From Thermoanaerobaculia bacterium (GTDB lineage Bacteria; Acidobacteriota; Thermoanaerobaculia; Gp7-AA8), in assembly GCA_017883205.1 (NCBI GenBank), contig JADGNZ010000050.1:1-44879 (forward strand): a stretch of DNA of 44,879 bases, given 5' to 3'. A program made the position numbers and the translations under genes. Below, one piece after another: positions 26,248-37,371 of this stretch (its first letter is position 1; each line of letters opens with the position of its first letter). The notes beneath the pieces were generated by a model. It was not told the DNA's origin. It saw only the letters and a list, made by a program, of their open reading frames with translations, and searched no databases.

Positions 26248-27750
26248 ATGACTGATGCAGTCATTCAACACGAAGACGGACGTGTCGAGCTTCGCTCAGA
26301 CGAAGGCATTCGCACCAGCGCGCTCTACAACCACGATCTGGCGCCCGTGCCGGTCTCGCAGCGAAACTGGACCACGTACAACTACGCGGCGCTCTGGATC
26401 GCCATGGCGCACTGCATCCCGACCTACATGATGTCGTCGGGCCTCATCGGCGCGGGGATGAACTGGTGGCAGGCGCTGCTTACGATCCTCGTCGGAAACA
26501 CGATCGTGCTCGTTCCGATCCTGCTCAACTCGCACGCCGGCACCAAGTACGGCATCCCTTTCCCCGTCTTCGCACGCGCCAGCTACGGCACGATCGGCTC
26601 GAACCTGCCGGCGCTCATGCGCGCCATCGTCGCTTGCGGCTGGTTCGGCATTCAGGCGTGGATCGGCGGAGAAGCGCTGCACACGTTTTTCACCTCGATC
26701 CTTCCCGCGTGGCCGTCGCTGCTCGGCAAGTTCGCGGGACATCCGACGACAGAGTGGATCTCGTTTCTTCTCTTCTGGGCGCTGAACATCCTGATCATCT
26801 ACCGCGGGATGGACCTGCTGCGGCGCTTCGAAAACTGGGCTGCTCCCTTCGTTCTCGTCATGACCGCGCTTCTCCTCGGCTGGGCCGTCTGGCGCGCACA
26901 CGGACTCGGCTACCTGCTGCACGAGAAGGGCAAATTCGAAACGTGGGCGCAGTTCCGGCCGATCTTCATCCCATCGCTGACAGCGATGATCGGCTTCTGG
27001 GCCACGCTGTCGCTGAACATGCCGGACTTCACGCGCTTCGGACGCAGCCAGCGCGAGCAGGCCATCGGTCAAACCGTGGCGCTGCCGACGACGATGACCG
27101 TCTTCGCGGCGATGGGCGTCATCATCACCTCCGCGGCCGTCGTCATCTATCCGACGATGGGCATCAACGAGCTGTGGGATCCGCTCAGGCTCGTTGCGCA
27201 GTTCAAGCAGCCTCTCGTCGTAGCCATCTCGATGTTCACCGTGGTCATCGCCACGCTGTCAGTCAACATCGCCGCGAACGTCGTCTCGCCCGCGAATGAC
27301 TTCGCCAACGCCTTTCCCAAGTGGATCTCCTTCCGCACCGGTGGCCTGATCACCGGCCTCCTCGCCATCGCCATGCAGCCGTGGCGCCTCCTCGCCGATC
27401 CTTCCGGCTACATCTTCACCTGGCTCCTCGGCTACTCCGGCGGCCTGGGATCGATCGGCGGCGTGATGATCGTCGACTACTGGATCGTGCGAAAGAAGCA
27501 TCTCATCCTCGGCGATCTCTATCGCACCGAGGGGACGTACCGGTACGCCGCCGGCTGGAATTGGCGCGCTGTCATCGCCACGCTCCTCGGCTGTACCGCA
27601 GCGTGGATCGGCCTCGTCGTCCCCGCCCTGCGCCCGCTATACGATTACGCTTGGTTCATCGGCTTCGGCGTCGCCGCGGTGACGCACCTCATCCTGATGA
27701 AAGTGATGCCGCCGAGCGATATCGTGGAAGCAACTCCAGCCCCGGCATGA
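26248..27750 (+). CDS. NCS1-family nucleobase/allantoin/hydantoin transporter
   Basis: This 500-residue, 12-helix transporter of the nucleobase-cation-symport-1 family (Mhp1, PucI, uracil permease type) imports uracil, allantoin or hydantoins with Na+ or H+. Landmarks are YNHDLAPVPVSQRNWTTYNYAALWIAMAHCIPTYM, NSHAGTKYGIPFPVFARASYG, GWFGIQAWIGGEAL, SLNMPDFTRF and NIAANVVSPANDF. ATG 26248 has a good GGAGG site 7 bases upstream. The Pro-rich open frame starts in its stop codon (ATGA), followed by the amidase and xdhA, which supports a role in uptake of a purine or pyrimidine breakdown product. Confidence 0.9.
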   Translation: MTDAVIQHEDGRVELRSDEGIRTSALYNHDLAPVPVSQRNWTTYNYAALWIAMAHCIPTYMMSSGLIGAGMNWWQALLTILVGNTIVLVPILLNSHAGTKYGIPFPVFARASYGTIGSNLPALMRAIVACGWFGIQAWIGGEALHTFFTSILPAWPSLLGKFAGHPTTEWISFLLFWALNILIIYRGMDLLRRFENWAAPFVLVMTALLLGWAVWRAHGLGYLLHEKGKFETWAQFRPIFIPSLTAMIGFWATLSLNMPDFTRFGRSQREQAIGQTVALPTTMTVFAAMGVIITSAAVVIYPTMGINELWDPLRLVAQFKQPLVVAISMFTVVIATLSVNIAANVVSPANDFANAFPKWISFRTGGLITGLLAIAMQPWRLLADPSGYIFTWLLGYSGGLGSIGGVMIVDYWIVRKKHLILGDLYRTEGTYRYAAGWNWRAVIATLLGCTAAWIGLVVPALRPLYDYAWFIGFGVAAVTHLILMKVMPPSDIVEATPAPA

Positions 27751-28580
27751 TCACACTACTCATCCTCGGCGGCGCCGCAGTGGCCGCACTCGTAGCAGGC
27801 GCCTCGCTGAAGCGAAAAAAAGCCCAACGCGACGTAGAGCAGGCGTCCTTGCCTGCTCCCGACGGGCGTCCCCGCCCGGCGGTGGTTACGAATCCGGAAT
27901 CCCAACAAGAAACCGGATCGCCAAAGATCGCGCCGGCCCACTCCGAGCCCGAGCCGCAGAGTGGGGATGAGCGGGCTGAAGTCAACCCGCCAGCGCTGGA
28001 ACTTCCTTCCACACCGATCGAACCAGGGACGGTGGAACCGGCTCCTTATCCCGCGTTTCGCACCGACGTACCGCCGGGCAGGGACGCCCGGCGGCAGCAG
28101 GCAGGGATGCCTGCTCTACGATCGGAGCCTGATTTCGCACCGCAGCCGTTGGCGATGTCCGATCCTCAGCCGCAACCGCCCGCGATCCCCGATTTGCCGC
28201 CGGTCACCGATCCCGAGCCGCTACCAGAAGCCGACCCAGAACCGCTCCCGATCATCGAGCCCGAGCCTCAGCCAGCGCCCGAGCCACCGTCTTCGCCGGA
28301 GCCAACGCAGCCAACGATCATCGTCGCCAGCGACCAACCGCCGGTCACCGATCCCGAGCCGCTTCCCAACGCCGATCCCGAACCGCTCCCGATCATCGAG
28401 CCGGAGCCTCAACCAGCACCCGAGCCGCCACCGCCGGAACTAATGCAGCCAACGATCATCGTCGCCGCCGAGCGACTGCCCAAACAGACATTCACGGCCA
28501 CAGGTAGGCTAAGCCGAAGGCAACAAGCGCTGCGGGCCGTGCCCGCTATAATGCGCGGACCAAAATCGGAGAGAACGCAC
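27747..28580 (+). CDS. Membrane-anchored Pro/Glu-rich segment read in frame into the nitrilase-family gene
   Basis: From ATG 27747, overlapping the transporter stop, 278 codons run without a stop directly into the amidase at 28581, so translation would give one 567-residue protein. The start ITLLILGGAAVAALVAGASLKRKK is a single membrane helix with a basic stop-transfer. The rest is low complexity, rich in Pro, Glu and Asp, with a 47-residue tandem duplication (DPEPLP...IIEPEPQPAPEP). Two inverted 51-base repeats (27833-27883 and 28070-28120) lie inside the frame. Either the amidase carries a long tethered tail, or this is a separate open stretch and the amidase begins at its own ATG, which has a promoter-like TATAAT and a ribosome site. 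I cannot tell which. Confidence 0.5.
27833..28120. repeat. Pair of inverted 51-bp repeats in the Pro-rich frame
   Basis: 27833-27883 (begins CGTAGAGCAGGCGTCC) and 28070-28120 (ends GGATGCCTGCTCTACG) are inverted copies with 46 of 51 positions matching, 186 bases apart. Each arm also contains short internal palindromes (GCAGGC/GCCTGC, CGGGCG/CGCCCG). Both arms are in frame and give no stop codon. Confidence 0.85.
28203..28482 (+). repeat. Two-copy 141-bp tandem repeat encoding Pro/Glu-rich peptide
   Basis: The sequence starting GTCACCGATCCCGAGCCGCT recurs after exactly 141 bases (28203 and 28344), keeping frame and encoding two 47-residue units ending in Q-P-T-I-I-V-A. The copies differ at scattered sites and in a few codons near the end. 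It may expand or contract by recombination. Confidence 0.85.
28546..28551 (+). promoter_or_regulatory. Possible -10 box for the nitrilase-family gene
   Basis: A perfect TATAAT lies 29 bases upstream of ATG 28581, with the ribosome site GGAGAG between. No clear -35 box lies 16-18 bases before it. It supports independent expression of the amidase from its own start. Confidence 0.4.
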
Positions 28581-29450
28581 ATGTCCCGAATCGTCAAAGG
28601 TGGTTTGATTCAGACGTCCCTCGCTTGCGATACCAGCGAGCCGCTCGACAAGATCCGCGAGGCCCAGACCGAGCGCACCCTCAAGTACGTCGATCAGGCC
28701 GGAGCCGAAGGTGTGCAGATTCTCTGCATGCAGGAGATCTTCACCGGTCCCTACTTCTGCGCCGAGCAGAACACGCGCTGGTACGACTCCGTCGAGAAAA
28801 TCCCCGACGGACCAACCACGAAGCTCATGCAGGAGTACGCCAAGAAATACAACATGGTCATCGTCGTGCCTCTTTACGAAGAGGAAGAGACCGGCGTGTA
28901 CTACAACACCGCCGCCGTCATCGACGCCGATGGCAAGTACCTCGGCAAGTACCGCAAGAACCACATCCCGCACGTTGCTCCCGGTTTCTGGGAGAAGTTC
29001 TACTTCCGCCCGGGCAACCTCGGGTACCCGGTGTTCGAGACCGCCTACGCGAAGGTCGGCGTCTACATCTGCTACGACCGCCACTTCCCCGAAGGCGCGC
29101 GCGAGCTTGGGCTGGCCGGCGCGGAGATCGTGATGAACCCCTCGGCCACCGTGGCCGGGCTCTCCGAGTATCTCTGGAAGCTCGAGCAGCCCGCGCACGC
29201 CGTCGCCAACGGCTACTTCATCGGCGCCATCAACCGCGTCGGCTATGAAGCGCCGTGGAACATCGGCGAGTTCTACGGGCAGAGCTACTTCTGCGATCCG
29301 CGCGGCCAAATGCTGGCTGTTGGCCCGCGCGATGCCGATGCCCTCGTCACCGCCGATCTCGACATGGACAAGATCCGCGAAGTGCGCAACACGTGGCAGT
29401 TTTATCGCGACCGGCGTCCGGAGACGTACACCGGAATCGTGCGGCTGTAG
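28581..29450 (+). CDS. Nitrilase-superfamily amidohydrolase (beta-ureidopropionase / N-carbamoyl amidase type)
   Basis: This 289-residue domain has the nitrilase triad: Glu52 (CMQEIF), Lys126 (KYRKNHIPH) and Cys164 (VYICYDRHFPE). The RKNHIPH and CYDRHFPEGARELGLAGAEI segments, and the C-terminal RDRRPETY, fit N-carbamoyl-beta-alanine amidohydrolases, which release beta-alanine, CO2 and ammonia in pyrimidine degradation. Agmatine/N-carbamoylputrescine amidases are similar. ATG 28581 has GGAGAG 7 bases upstream. The upstream frame is open as far as 27747, so a longer form is possible. Its place between an NCS1 transporter and xdhA supports a nucleobase-catabolic role. Confidence 0.88.
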   Translation: MSRIVKGGLIQTSLACDTSEPLDKIREAQTERTLKYVDQAGAEGVQILCMQEIFTGPYFCAEQNTRWYDSVEKIPDGPTTKLMQEYAKKYNMVIVVPLYEEEETGVYYNTAAVIDADGKYLGKYRKNHIPHVAPGFWEKFYFRPGNLGYPVFETAYAKVGVYICYDRHFPEGARELGLAGAEIVMNPSATVAGLSEYLWKLEQPAHAVANGYFIGAINRVGYEAPWNIGEFYGQSYFCDPRGQMLAVGPRDADALVTADLDMDKIREVRNTWQFYRDRRPETYTGIVRL

Positions 29451-32788: not shown

Positions 32789-33199
32789 TCATTTCGAAAG
32801 CTCATCCAGCTCGAGCTGAGAGAACGCACTGATCGTGACGTAGTAACCGTCCGGATCGCGGAGCGAGAACTCGCGGGTTCCTGTATTCGGGTTCGTGCTC
32901 GGCTCCTCTTCGAATTGGACAACGAGAGAGCGCGCGCGCTTCAGCGCGCTATCGAAATCGTCGACGCGAAAGAACAATAGGAGGCCGTTGCCAGGCTGCA
33001 CGTGATCGGGGCTCGTCAAGGAGGGATGATCGTGAGCGCCCCACTGATGAAGGCAGAGCAGGACCGTTCCATCCGCGTCGAGGATTTGACCGAAGTATTC
33101 GTGGGCGGGAGCCGTCTCCGGCAGGCCAAGTAGCGACTGGTACCACTTGAAGCTACCAGGCACGTCGCCAACCCCGATGATCGTCCACGTGCGCCTCAT
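32789..33199 (-). CDS. VOC-family (glyoxalase/bleomycin-resistance-like) protein
   Basis: This 136-residue single-domain VOC protein has one beta-alpha-beta-beta-beta module starting TWTIIGVGDVPGSFKWYQSLLGLP and a second ending F-S-L-R-D-P-D-G-Y-Y-V-T-I-S. Members bind a metal and act as glyoxalases, dioxygenases or drug-binding resistance proteins; the ligand here is not known. ATG 33197-33199 has a strong AGGAGG 6 bases upstream. It is alone on its strand, upstream of the HEPN-like gene by about 100 bases. Just upstream is a GTTACGC box with a CTGAAGC segment resembling the end of an attC site. Confidence 0.85.
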   Translation of the reverse strand: MRRTWTIIGVGDVPGSFKWYQSLLGLPETAPAHEYFGQILDADGTVLLCLHQWGAHDHPSLTSPDHVQPGNGLLLFFRVDDFDSALKRARSLVVQFEEEPSTNPNTGTREFSLRDPDGYYVTISAFSQLELDELSK

Positions 33200-33485
33200 A
33201 ACGGTCCTCCTGCGGCGTAACGGGCTTGCGCTTCAGCGGCGTGGCCGCGACGCGGGATGCTAGCGCACTTCCTACGCGGCTGCGCAAGGGCCACGCTGGG
33301 CAGCACGCGCCTGTGAACCTCGCCGAAACCCCAGATCGATCGTTCCGTGCTTTCCTCCGTTGACCGAATCAAGCTTATCGATCGCGAGATCGTCAACTCC
33401 TTCCGCGCGCCGCCGGCGATTCTCCTCTCGCAACCGGACGACTCACCATGCGCGCCGACGGATTCACCGCCTGTGCTGGCGGTTC
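33200..33485. other. Non-coding stretch before the 21-bp array, with an attC-like half-site
   Basis: 286 bases separate the VOC gene from the repeat array. Near 33211-33240 the minus strand reads CTGAAGCGCAAGCCCGTTACGC, whose CTGAAGC is the exact complement of GCTTCAG in the attC-like half at 30990. GTG 33347 opens a frame whose first 30 residues (SSVDRIKLIDREIVNSFRAP) look protein-like, but it runs into the array and ends there, so I do not call it a gene. Confidence 0.4.
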
Positions 33486-34040
33486 GCCGTGTGCACCGAC
33501 TAACGGGCCGTGTGCACCGAATCGCCGATCGTGCGCACACACATGCCGATCGTGTGCACACACTTGCCCATCGTGCGCACACACATGCTCATCGTGCGCT
33601 CACACATGCCCATCGTGCGCACCGATCTGCCCATCGTGTGCACACACTTGCCCATCGTGTGCGCTGACATGCCGACCGTGTGCACCGACTTGCCCATCGT
33701 GCGCACCCGCTTGCCGACCGTGCGCGCCAGCCAGCTCAGCCGGTACGCCGACTGGTTGGCGTGTTGCACCGTCGGTTCACACGGTCCGCTAGTCGGTGCG
33801 CAGGATGGGCATGTGTGTGCGCACGATGGGCATGTCAGCGCACACGATGGGCATGTCGGTGCGCACGGTGGGCATGTCGGTGCGCACGGTGGGCATGTCG
33901 GTGCACACGATGGGCATGTCAGCGCACACGATCAGCATGTCGGTGCACATGATGGGCATGCCAGCGCACACGATCAGCTAGTCGGTGTACACGATCAGCT
34001 AGTCAGCGTACCCCGCCTGGCAGTCAGTGTTCCGGGTCGC
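33486..34040. repeat. Inverted array: 12 + 12 tandem 21-bp units around a 51-bp centre
   Basis: Twelve units of exactly 21 bases run from 33486 to 33737 (consensus ATCGTGCGCAC then CGACATGCCC or a close variant). Twelve more run from 33789 to 34040 in the opposite orientation (CATGTCGGTGCGCAC then GATGGG). The centre, 33738-33788, holds degenerate unit-like sequence and a CGCC/GGCG hairpin. Most units contain TGCGCA or TGTGCACA, self-complementary cores, so cores recur every two helical turns on one face of the DNA. Because 21 is a multiple of 3 and units lack stops, long frames are open on both strands, but I see no sign that any is a gene. It lies between the VOC gene and the diguanylate cyclase gene. 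Confidence 0.95.
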
Positions 34041-34133: not shown

Positions 34134-34188
34134 TTCACCTCAGAGGCGCAGAGAACACAGAGAAAAACCTCTGTGTCCTCTGTGGTTA
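34134..34188. repeat. Imperfect inverted repeat after the 21-bp array
   Basis: TTCACCTCAGAGGCGCAGAG and onwards is imperfectly complementary to CCTCTGTGTCCTCTGTGGTTAA, with a loop of A residues. This CACAGAGG-type palindrome is unlike the 21-bp units and lies 16 bases beyond the end of the diguanylate cyclase gene, where it might act as a transcript-end hairpin. Confidence 0.65.
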
Positions 34189-34204
34189 AAGACTTCTTCG
34201 CAAC

Positions 34205-35395
34205 CTACGAGGAAACGCGCATTGCGGTGGAAGTGCCAACCACCACTCGATTCCGCCCCGCTTTCTTCGCCGCGTAAAGCCGCTCATCGGCAACGCGGAA
34301 GAGCACATCGACGCTGTTGCCGTCGTCAGGGAAGATCGATGCCCCGATGCTGACCGTCACGGCGGCGCCATCCTTTGGCGCGGGCATCGACTCGATCCCT
34401 TCGCGGACTCGTTCGGCGATCGCTGCCAGCGACGCGGAGTCGATCTGCGGAACGATTACCGCGAACTCCTCGCCGCCGTAGCGCGCCGGAAAATCGACCG
34501 AGCGCACCGTCTCGCGAATCACACGCCCCACGCGCTGCAATGCATCGTTCCCGGCGAGGTGGCCGTAGGTGTCGTTGTATTTCTTGAAGCGGTCGAGATC
34601 GAGGATGAGGATGCCGACGTGTTCCGGGTAGCGGCTTGCACGCTCGATCTCGATGTCGATGCGCTCGCGAAAGGCGCGGAAGTTCGGCAAGTTCGTCAGC
34701 TCGTCGGTCCGGGCATGCGCCTTCAACTCATCCGCCATGTGATTGACCGCCGCGGCCAGGTTGGCGATCTCGAAATCGCCCTCCACCTGCGCGCGTGCGC
34801 CGAGGTCGCCGGCGGCGATGCGGTCGGCAGCGTGGGAGAGGTCTTCGAGCGGACGCACGACCTTGCGCAGCGTCACCTGCACCGCCGCGAAGCTGCAGAT
34901 GACGACGATCCACGCTACGGCCAGGCCAGCGGTCATCAACTCGCGCGATTCACGCTCGAGCATCGGCAGTTGCCGCGCGATCTCGCGCTTTCGCTCGTCG
35001 ATCATCCTCTGCGCCTCGGCCACAACGCGCAGCGACTCGGTGTCGATCTCATCGGACTGGGAAGTGCTGTCGCCGATCGCGCTACGAAATGTCTCCATCC
35101 TGCGCCGCAGTGCCGCTGTGTCGATCGTCGACAACGAATCCGACTCCAGCAGTTGCGCGACGATGCGGTAGCGCGAGGCGTCGCCGGCGACTGCGTGCGC
35201 GCGATACGCGTTCTGCGCGCGGATCAGCTCCTCGAGCGTAGCAATCGCCCGCGTCTCGACGCCGACGAGCCGGCTCCAGCGGTCCTGCGCCACCTGCGCG
35301 CGCCAGCTCAGACCGAACGTGATTCCGAAAAGCACGAGCGCAAATGCTGCCGTCAGAAGCCACACGCGCGAGCGAAGCCGGGTGCGCCGAACCAT
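34205..35395 (-). CDS. Membrane diguanylate cyclase (HAMP-GGDEF)
   Basis: This 396-residue protein has a membrane helix at 11-31, a periplasmic helical sensor region (about 32-154), a second membrane helix (about 155-176), a HAMP linker (177-229) and a GGDEF domain starting DELTNLPNFRAF. The active site is GGEEF (307-311), and an inhibitory RxxD site (Arg298-Asp301) stands exactly five residues before it, so it should make cyclic di-GMP from two GTP with product feedback. The ATG at 35393-35395 lies 2 bases after the glucoamylase stop, with a GGAAAAAA site inside that gene, so the two are co-transcribed. The signal it senses is unknown. Confidence 0.92.
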   Translation of the reverse strand: MVRRTRLRSRVWLLTAAFALVLFGITFGLSWRAQVAQDRWSRLVGVETRAIATLEELIRAQNAYRAHAVAGDASRYRIVAQLLESDSLSTIDTAALRRRMETFRSAIGDSTSQSDEIDTESLRVVAEAQRMIDERKREIARQLPMLERESRELMTAGLAVAWIVVICSFAAVQVTLRKVVRPLEDLSHAADRIAAGDLGARAQVEGDFEIANLAAAVNHMADELKAHARTDELTNLPNFRAFRERIDIEIERASRYPEHVGILILDLDRFKKYNDTYGHLAGNDALQRVGRVIRETVRSVDFPARYGGEEFAVIVPQIDSASLAAIAERVREGIESMPAPKDGAAVTVSIGASIFPDDGNSVDVLFRVADERLYAAKKAGRNRVVVGTSTAMRVSS

Positions 35396-35397
35396 CG

Positions 35398-37371
35398 TCA
35401 GCTTTTTTCCGCCAGTTCGATGGCGCGCCGTGCAACGACGTGCGTGGCCAGCACAAACGCGGCGTGACTCCAGGTCAGTGGCGCGACGGAGAGTGGCGCG
35501 CCGGTGTAGGGATCGAGCTGTTCCGCGAGCACCCCGCTCGGTAGCGCGCGATCGCACGCCCACAGCAGAATGTCGATCGCCTTCTGCAGCTCGGCTGTCG
35601 TTTGCGCCTGCATCGCATACCAGTGCGCGACTGAGAGCGTGCAGACGATCCACGGATTGCCGGCAACGTTCTGCACATCCTTCGACACCTGAAAGTAGTA
35701 ATCGTTCTCGTAGCGCGCCACGCCGCCGACGTCGGTCTTGATCGTCAGCCGCGCGATCATCGCCTCCATCGTGGCCACGATCTTCGGATCGCCAGGGTCG
35801 AACATCCCGAAGAGCCAGAGCCCGGCCATCGAGGCGTCGAGCGTCGGGTCGGTCGTGATCTCCCCTTCGCGGGACACATTCACGGATCGCGCAAAGCAGC
35901 CAGTCGTCTCGTCAAAGAGGAAGCGCGACGTCGCTTCACGGATCTCTGAGGCCGCGCGCCGGTACTTCTCCGCCTGCGCAGTCTCGCCGAAGGCGTCGGT
36001 GAATCGCGCCGCAGCGTACAGACCCGCCCAGACCGAGCCGATCGTGTACGCAGCAATCCCGCGGCGCTCCTCCCATAAATCCCACGACGGCGCGGGCAAA
36101 CGTGTGTGCGGCTCACGGTAGCGCGCCAGAAAATCGGCCATCTGCTTGATGATCGGCTTGTAGAGCGGCTTCACGAACTCGACGTCGTGAAACTTCTCGA
36201 AATGCGTCCAGAGCGCGACGACGACCAGCGCGGTCTCGTCTTCCTGAATCGGCAGTTGCCGCTTGCCGTCCGCGAGCCATGGATGCCAGGACGATCCCAC
36301 CGATCCATCCGGGTTGTACTTGTGCAGCAGAAATCCCTCGGGCGTGATGAGCCGGCAACAGAAATCGAAAAAACGTCGCGTGATCTCCGCGTAACCGGCC
36401 TGCAGCAGTGCCATGGCCACGATCGCGCCGTCGCGCGGCCACATATAGGTGTACGTGTCCTTGCCGAACTGCACGATGTCGGAGTCGGTCGCGGCGATGA
36501 CGGCACCGCTGTGATCGACCTGCGTGCGGATGATCAGCAACGATCGTCGATACAGCCGCTGCACCGCCTCGGGTAATCGGCTGACATCGACGTCGTTCTT
36601 GACCCACAACTTCCAATAGTCGCGCGTGCGATCGAGCAGCGACGCCGCGCCGCGCTCGCGAACGAAGGTGTCGAGCGCAACGACCTCCTTGTAGGACTGC
36701 CCGAAAACCCACCAGACGTAAGCTGTCGACACCGCGCCCGGCAGTAGCGCAATCTCGATCATCCCGGTGCAATCGACCGATCCCTGAGCGATTGCTTTGT
36801 TTGGTTCGAACACGCCATCCTCGGCGTCGCGCCACGTTCCCTGATAGCCCTCCCGCTCCTTCGTGCCGATGGCGAAGGCCTTGAAGCCGAATTGATCGTC
36901 GCTCACCGCATTGATCAAAACGTAGCGCTGCGCCTTGTACGCGACGAAGCCGTCGAACTCCGGGTCGAAGAAGATCGTGTCGCCGATGGCGTTTCCGCTG
37001 AGATGCGGATCGAAGTGACTGAAGAGGCGCACGGTCCGCTTCGTGTCGGCCAGATTGCGGAGCTCGACGCGCCGGATGAAGACATCGCGATCGAAATCGA
37101 CCGCGTCGTTGATCGTCATATCGAGCTGCAGCGAATCGGAATGCGCGTCCATCCGCGTGACGAGCGTGTCGCCGTCGTAGTCGAGCCGCTTCACCCACGC
37201 CGGATCGCCGATCCAGGCAAACTTCCCATCGCACCAAATGCCAAAGAAGCTAACATCCCCGTTGGTCTGGTTGTCCTGCCCGACATGCGGGTAGTAAACG
37301 TCGCGGATGTTGTACTCATGATCGAAGTTGACCATGAGGCTGCCGTTGCCGATAGGAAGATCGCGCGCCAC
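35398..37371 (-). CDS. GH15-family glucoamylase-like glycoside hydrolase
   Basis: This 657-residue protein starts ARDLPIGNGSLMVNFDHEYNIRDVYYPHVGQ, the standard beginning of bacterial GH15 proteins: an N-terminal beta-sandwich (about 1-270), then an (alpha/alpha)6 barrel. The barrel shows YTYMWPRDG (near 320), WDLWEERRG with the likely general acid Glu near 431, and AEQLDPYTGAPLSVAPLTWSHA near 615 with the general base Glu. Family members hydrolyse alpha-1,4/1,6-glucans, or trehalose or dextrans, by inversion. There is no signal peptide, so it probably works on intracellular glycogen or trehalose. Start is GTG 37369-37371 by family homology. It is the first gene of an operon with the diguanylate cyclase. 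Confidence 0.88.
   Translation of the reverse strand: MARDLPIGNGSLMVNFDHEYNIRDVYYPHVGQDNQTNGDVSFFGIWCDGKFAWIGDPAWVKRLDYDGDTLVTRMDAHSDSLQLDMTINDAVDFDRDVFIRRVELRNLADTKRTVRLFSHFDPHLSGNAIGDTIFFDPEFDGFVAYKAQRYVLINAVSDDQFGFKAFAIGTKEREGYQGTWRDAEDGVFEPNKAIAQGSVDCTGMIEIALLPGAVSTAYVWWVFGQSYKEVVALDTFVRERGAASLLDRTRDYWKLWVKNDVDVSRLPEAVQRLYRRSLLIIRTQVDHSGAVIAATDSDIVQFGKDTYTYMWPRDGAIVAMALLQAGYAEITRRFFDFCCRLITPEGFLLHKYNPDGSVGSSWHPWLADGKRQLPIQEDETALVVVALWTHFEKFHDVEFVKPLYKPIIKQMADFLARYREPHTRLPAPSWDLWEERRGIAAYTIGSVWAGLYAAARFTDAFGETAQAEKYRRAASEIREATSRFLFDETTGCFARSVNVSREGEITTDPTLDASMAGLWLFGMFDPGDPKIVATMEAMIARLTIKTDVGGVARYENDYYFQVSKDVQNVAGNPWIVCTLSVAHWYAMQAQTTAELQKAIDILLWACDRALPSGVLAEQLDPYTGAPLSVAPLTWSHAAFVLATHVVARRAIELAEKS

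Follow-up and report, generated by a model that had tools for sequence, protein, structure and literature searches.

A mirror-image array of 21-bp units in a Thermoanaerobaculia bacterium as a probable member of a dispersed minisatellite family

The window, which is the whole stretch of 44,879 nucleotides from a Thermoanaerobaculia bacterium analyzed here, contains an array of tandem 21-bp units in a 1-kb gap between two genes. On one side lies a glyoxalase/VOC-family gene (32789–33199, minus strand), whose start codon is 286 bp from the array, and on the other a HAMP-GGDEF gene (34205–35653, minus strand), whose stop codon is 188 bp from it. The array consists of a left arm of 12 units (33485–33736; unit starts at 33485, 33506, and so on to 33716), with the core in reverse orientation (minus strand), and of an inverted right arm, also of 12 units (33766–34017, plus strand), which are near GTGCGCACGATGGGCATGTCG in the forward orientation. 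Both arms were recovered by TRF, and the 16-mer unit pattern was matched 23 times in the window when 3.84 matches were expected, a number reached in none of 100 shuffles (largest 11); 18 of the 23 matches fall within 33485–33996. The unit register, TRF, and the shuffles bear out a sequence-only reading of this DNA, which had described 12 units facing 12 inverted units, and the exact 21-bp spacing that it gave for each side holds inside both arms. Its 51-base centre results from taking the outermost unit on the right, where the innermost should be counted; the centre, a strandless segment without a clear unit, is 29 bp long (33737–33765). A degenerate outermost unit is located at 34018–34038 (plus strand), and the outer right units contain GATCAGCTAG (33973–34003, plus strand), which was found too in the outer right units of another array, C23, as GATCAGCTAGCCGGTGCGCAC. 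The units are contiguous at 21 bp, without unique spacers between repeats, so that the exclusion of a CRISPR stands, and a self-complementary core (GTGCGCAC), which had been attributed to the units in general, is present in some of them and only in those. Two other repeats were seen in the window, namely a short palindromic repeat of the CTCTGTG...CACAGAG type at 34135–34196, a copy of which (82% alike over 50 bp) is found near the C3 array (L131 2746–2794), and a 141-bp tandem repeat of 1.9 copies at 28197–28466, within a long ORF (27321–29450). The window gave no Rfam match at gathering scores.

The complementarity of the two arms depends on the register, with 74% in one (259 nt) and 78% in another (237 nt). 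The likeness of units was.744 and.653 within the arms versus.692 between them, and 192 of 1000 label shuffles, performed with 11 left and 13 right units, reached the observed separation of the arms. Both arms are drawn from one unit population. From one arm to the other, core centres are 244 bp apart, which by our arithmetic from the unit coordinates amounts to 23.2 helical turns of 10.5 bp each and puts the two arms out of phase by roughly a quarter of a turn. The cores, all proposed to lie on the same face of the helix, do so within an arm but not between arms. Artefactual inversions are expected to be near identical. The assembly is fragmented (105 contigs), with arrays located at contig ends (C16, C44, and C68), but since the arms differ at roughly a quarter of their positions (74–78% alike), we consider it extremely unlikely that the inversion was created by the assembly, which had been named as an observation that would undo the dyad.

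The genome to which the window belongs (G000) contains at least 17 arrays of 21-bp units, amounting in all to about 9 kb and 15 of them complete, located at C1, C2, C3, C16, C19, C23, C31, C44 (three arrays), C53, C65, C68, C75, C87, C90 (the window), and C103; the C16 array probably carries on into the end of C44, where the unit is identical. A two-unit pattern was matched 119 + 82 times in this genome versus 26 + 10 times for the reversed control, and model R1, a two-unit sequence model of 71 unit pairs, gave 156 matches at E ≤ 0.1, those listed all falling in the known array loci. This census scored 150 of 3505 candidates, and short divergent arrays may thus be missing from it. The 15 complete arrays are 420–708 bp long, as determined by one method at two thresholds (.64 and.60), with a mean of 555 bp (~26 units) and a CV of.118, although long arrays may be under-represented because the C16, C44a, and C68 arrays stop at contig ends. 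As the window array is part of a family that occupies many loci and has a common core, slippage alone is inadequate to account for it, as had been suspected. It is the only array with two full inverted arms, none being observed among the 16 others as far as seen; C16 and C68 were incomplete in this comparison, and at C23 one lone unit, at the edge of the array, is reversed.

The pooled consensus of the units is GTCCGCACGGTAAACCCTCCG, in which positions 1, 4, 5, 6, 8, and 16 are the most conserved. Positions 1–11 differ by.24 within blocks and.29 between them, whereas positions 12–21 differ by.33 within and.57 between, indicating that the second half of the unit is locus-specific while an 11-bp core is common to all arrays. 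Ten arrays fit an arrangement in which an A block is followed by a B block in a single orientation. Automatic counts of A + B units run from 7 + 17 to 18 + 12, with totals of 22–30 units; the sizes of the two blocks are anticorrelated (r = −0.74), and totals as even were obtained in 413 of 50,000 permutations, under a block model that forces A before B and whose starting templates were taken from these same arrays. This automatic count supersedes an earlier one, made partly by eye (r = −0.83; 237 of 100,000 permutations). Inverted blocks hinted at by orientation signs at C3 and C75 were rejected: the X block is of A type in the same orientation, and both arrays fit the one-orientation model.

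These features bear on the idea that the arrays are functional multi-site platforms, in which a putative protein would bind the core every two turns, about 26 sites would be needed, and total length would be selected, the platform in the window being two-sided. The core is kept between loci while the remainder of the unit diverges, the spacing of units is exactly 21 in 268 of 305 cases (13 stretches), the totals stay in their range whatever the mix of blocks, and no short canonical array occurs among the census matches listed. However, 20- and 22-bp spacings are present (for example, six in C2 and four in C44b), the arms of the window are out of phase by our arithmetic, and the upper length limit may reflect the assembly, in view of the three arrays that stop at contig ends. 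Named neighbours without a common pathway and the lack of arrays in the sister species searched, both described below, also speak against platforms, which we hold to be an unlikely explanation, albeit the strongest of the alternatives.

A unit of 21 bp corresponds to seven codons, and the arrays might encode heptapeptide-repeat proteins, for example of the VRTxxxx type. One reading frame is free of stops in 17 of the 18 blocks and a second one in 16, and, according to the ORF lists of all 17 array stretches, arrays lie between larger GC3-biased ORFs, with ORFs of at least 90 codons overlapping several of them (e.g., C75, C103, C87, C31, and the window). Because of these two open frames, the case against coding rests on substitutions and not on stops: synonymous changes were 0.95–1.08 of expectation in all six frames (18 blocks, 542 unit differences; two of the blocks, the window left arm and C31, were out of register, and their frame labels are shifted), with no synonymous excess. 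Moreover, the remaining four frames have stops in 5–10 of the 18 blocks, one-base slips occur inside the C2, C31, and C44b arrays, the arms of the window are inverted, and the two window ORFs searched in Pfam matched no family. Judging from these sequence comparisons, the arrays are probably non-coding, and a heptapeptide-repeat product has hardly any probability in our estimation.

The dyad of the window could also be transcribed or extruded as a functional long hairpin RNA or cruciform. As RNA, the whole dyad folds with a z of about −24 for either strand (25 shuffles each), and as single-stranded DNA with a z of −13.5 (100 shuffles), and mirror register 0 was the best of the 13 tried (.775). 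Nevertheless, registers −1 to −4 are nearly as good (.746–.768), the best parallel register reaches.771, each arm folded alone gives z values of only −2.6 to +0.1, and no promoter-like site was found, with 0.2 expected. Among the 10 other arrays that were folded, C2, C31, C44b, and C23 fold well, with z values between −7.7 and −12 for one strand or both, whereas the six others (C75, C103, C1, C19, C16, and C3) fold at −2.7 to +2.4. Since two full inverted arms are confined to the window array, the hairpin is a local feature, and a hairpin RNA, as envisaged in the sequence-only reading, finds no support as the purpose of the family; a functional hairpin or cruciform at the window itself seems to us very unlikely.

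Several arrays share flanking DNA. C3, C87, and C44d have 77–120 bp in common with C53 or with one another, of which ~60–100 bp, located directly before the array, correspond to the end of an acyl-CoA dehydrogenase gene. The intact copy of this gene (410 codons, all three domains found in Pfam) immediately precedes the C53 array. Other shared flanks were found between C2 and C31 (172 bp), between C103 and C68 (743 bp), and among C1, C65, and C44c (110–127 bp). These shared gene ends and flanks show that several arrays were copied along with neighbouring DNA. In G007, G008, and G011, no array follows the stop codon of the acyl-CoA dehydrogenase orthologues (three of the four loci examined); at the fourth locus, in G016, the gene end was not located by motif. 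A second dispersed palindromic repeat, of 66–96 bp and 95–98% alike, was observed near three arrays of the genome (L136 5558–5653; L271 4736–4801; L268 4305–4400 and 7100–7185).

The neighbours, named at part of the loci, encode diguanylate cyclase/EAL, DUF2911, glyoxalase, GNAT, ABC membrane, glycosyltransferase, amidohydrolase, asparaginase, Met-zincin, carbamoyl-phosphate synthase, and acyl-CoA dehydrogenase proteins. No common pathway or theme, and no mobility gene beside an array, was found among those named. The proposal of an iteron-type replication origin or partition site agrees with tandem phased units and a quasi-palindromic core, but at least 17 arrays are present, the named neighbours are unrelated and include no replication or partition gene, and a comparison of the array with plasmids and phages gave no match, making such a role scarcely credible. 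Flank scores for terminal inverted repeats were at the cross-locus background in 14 of the 15 complete arrays. The sole exception, the C23 array, is enclosed by a 49-nt inverted repeat that is 88% complementary (L036 776–824 and 1568–1616). This array adjoins the gene for the large subunit of carbamoyl-phosphate synthase.

The distribution of the arrays is narrow. In a sample of 396 genomes of the phylum, 86 matches were found in the genome of the window and no more than 5 in any of the remaining 395, and 17 further genomes of the family gave 0–13 matches each, scattered among the matches listed, versus 97. The array is absent beside the HAMP-GGDEF orthologues of two genomes of the same genus, in which the GGDEF gene and the next gene are conserved, and no exact empty site for it was recovered in relatives because the neighbour on the VOC side differs there too. 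A lack of any conserved array in relatives had been proposed as evidence against an organized structure; this lack is true of the relatives searched, but both the core and the period of 21 bp are retained by the 16 other arrays of the window's own genome.

A scan of genome contigs with the full unit found nothing, and a second contig scan, which selected for the core, returned 33 stretches, with arrays in only some of them. Outside the phylum, Gordonia rhizosphera NBRC 16068 (106 matches versus 2) has multi-locus 21-bp arrays (L197–L210) with the core GGTGCGCACGRT; as the scan that found it selected for the core, the shared core is partly circular and is not independent evidence. Blocks in both orientations are present in 8 of the 14 stretches, all 8 being reverse-then-forward as in the window, and these signs held at the 8 loci when rechecked with a longer, less palindromic word. 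The 21 blocks of G. rhizosphera have a mean length of 134 bp (CV.36), and the arrays closely follow stop codons in three of four stretches according to ORF lists, the fourth fitting less well. Shorter 21-bp arrays with a similar core were also observed in Pedosphaera, Frankia, Streptomyces violaceoruber, and Streptacidiphilus (L067, L073, L077, and L097).

A scan of viral sequences returned three stretches (L292, L293, and L294), with no match to the A-type pattern. Their membership in the family was considered and rejected, the units of L292 being inside an ORF (VRTDRQT) and L294 matching L292 in its unit and in the repeats nearby, and these viral repeats are taken as chance or coding repeats. 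On contig L293 (8644–8795), a 21-bp unit that includes GTGTACGCGCGAT is repeated 7.2 times near an ORF read as large-terminase-like.

Several known kinds of repeats may be compared with these arrays. REP/REPIN elements, which are associated with Y1 (RAYT) transposases, are dispersed short palindromic units, sometimes in inverted pairs, and REPs occur as singlets or pairs rather than as arrays of 26. The arrays resemble them in their dispersed units and in the presence of 15 Y1 transposase matches in the genome (versus 9, 8, 7, and 1 in G007, G008, G011, and G016, respectively). However, no array unit was matched at the 10 Y1 loci examined (3 of the 15 in the genome of the window and 7 in relatives), and G. 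rhizosphera has arrays without a Y1 match. In eukaryotic minisatellite families, each locus has its own unit, homogenized within the locus, around one common core. Locus-specific units around one core are likewise found here, but the arrays are bacterial, have lengths near 550 bp, and their copies carry flanking gene ends. Foldback elements have inverted arms of tandem repeats, as does the window array, in contrast to the 16 other arrays as far as seen.

No description of this array family was found in the open-licence PMC literature searched. The nearest system is BrickBuilt, a minisatellite-MITE of Porphyromonas gingivalis which has a 23-nt tandem unit without spacers and 19 copies covering 10,276 bp, each of 1 to 22.8 units, with IS5-like terminal inverted repeats, both of which are present in 4 of the 19 copies, and with relatives in P. 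gulae (PMC4596501). The two families have in common imperfect spacerless units with more and less conserved parts (21 nt here versus 23 nt), a similar extent (here, at least 17 arrays that cover about 9 kb), a restricted host range, within the phylum sample in our case and with a similar family in G. rhizosphera, and homology of leader or tail outside the repeats in some copies. BrickBuilt is intergenic; the present arrays lie between larger ORFs, and several are overlapped by ORFs of at least 90 codons. Our arrays differ in their limited length range, in the two-block layout of ten of them, and in the inverted array of the window. Terminal inverted repeats, by which a MITE is recognized, were wanting in all complete arrays except C23, and the ends of the elements are too degenerate to be located exactly. 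The best reading is that the arrays form a dispersed bacterial minisatellite family nearest to BrickBuilt, and that the dyad is a rearranged member of it.

Taken together, these results make it fairly probable that the window array belongs to a family of dispersed minisatellites that is lineage-specific and probably non-coding, comprising at least 17 arrays of ~26 tandem 21-bp units. Copies would reach new sites through a copying process that captures flanks, for which the candidates are template switching during repair or recombination and the action of a transposase in trans, and unequal exchange or conversion may afterwards turn over the units within each locus. The mirror in the window might have arisen through reversed copying or exchange of one half of a single array, a step that the quasi-palindromic core may have aided. 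The core is most likely the part of the array that a putative protein would recognize, and its conservation, together with the narrow length range, exceeds the needs of a purely parasitic repeat. Going further, the arrays could be length-regulated platforms offering ~26 phased sites to one putative core-binding protein and renewed by in-register conversion, by which the type of unit could change while the total number would remain fixed; the same arrangement would have arisen in, or been transferred to, the unrelated G. rhizosphera, with its uniform reverse-then-forward order. We regard this extended proposal as a long shot, improbable as a whole.

The mirror arrangement is unusual, but elements of a similar kind have been described before. 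A striking dyad at a single locus can turn out to be the exception within a family spread over the whole genome, and the parallel family of G. rhizosphera raises the question of a shared recogniser of the core. Bacterial minisatellites that occupy many loci with a common core and a differing remainder, and that combine narrow lengths with captured gene ends, make both their route of spread and the constraint on their length testable.
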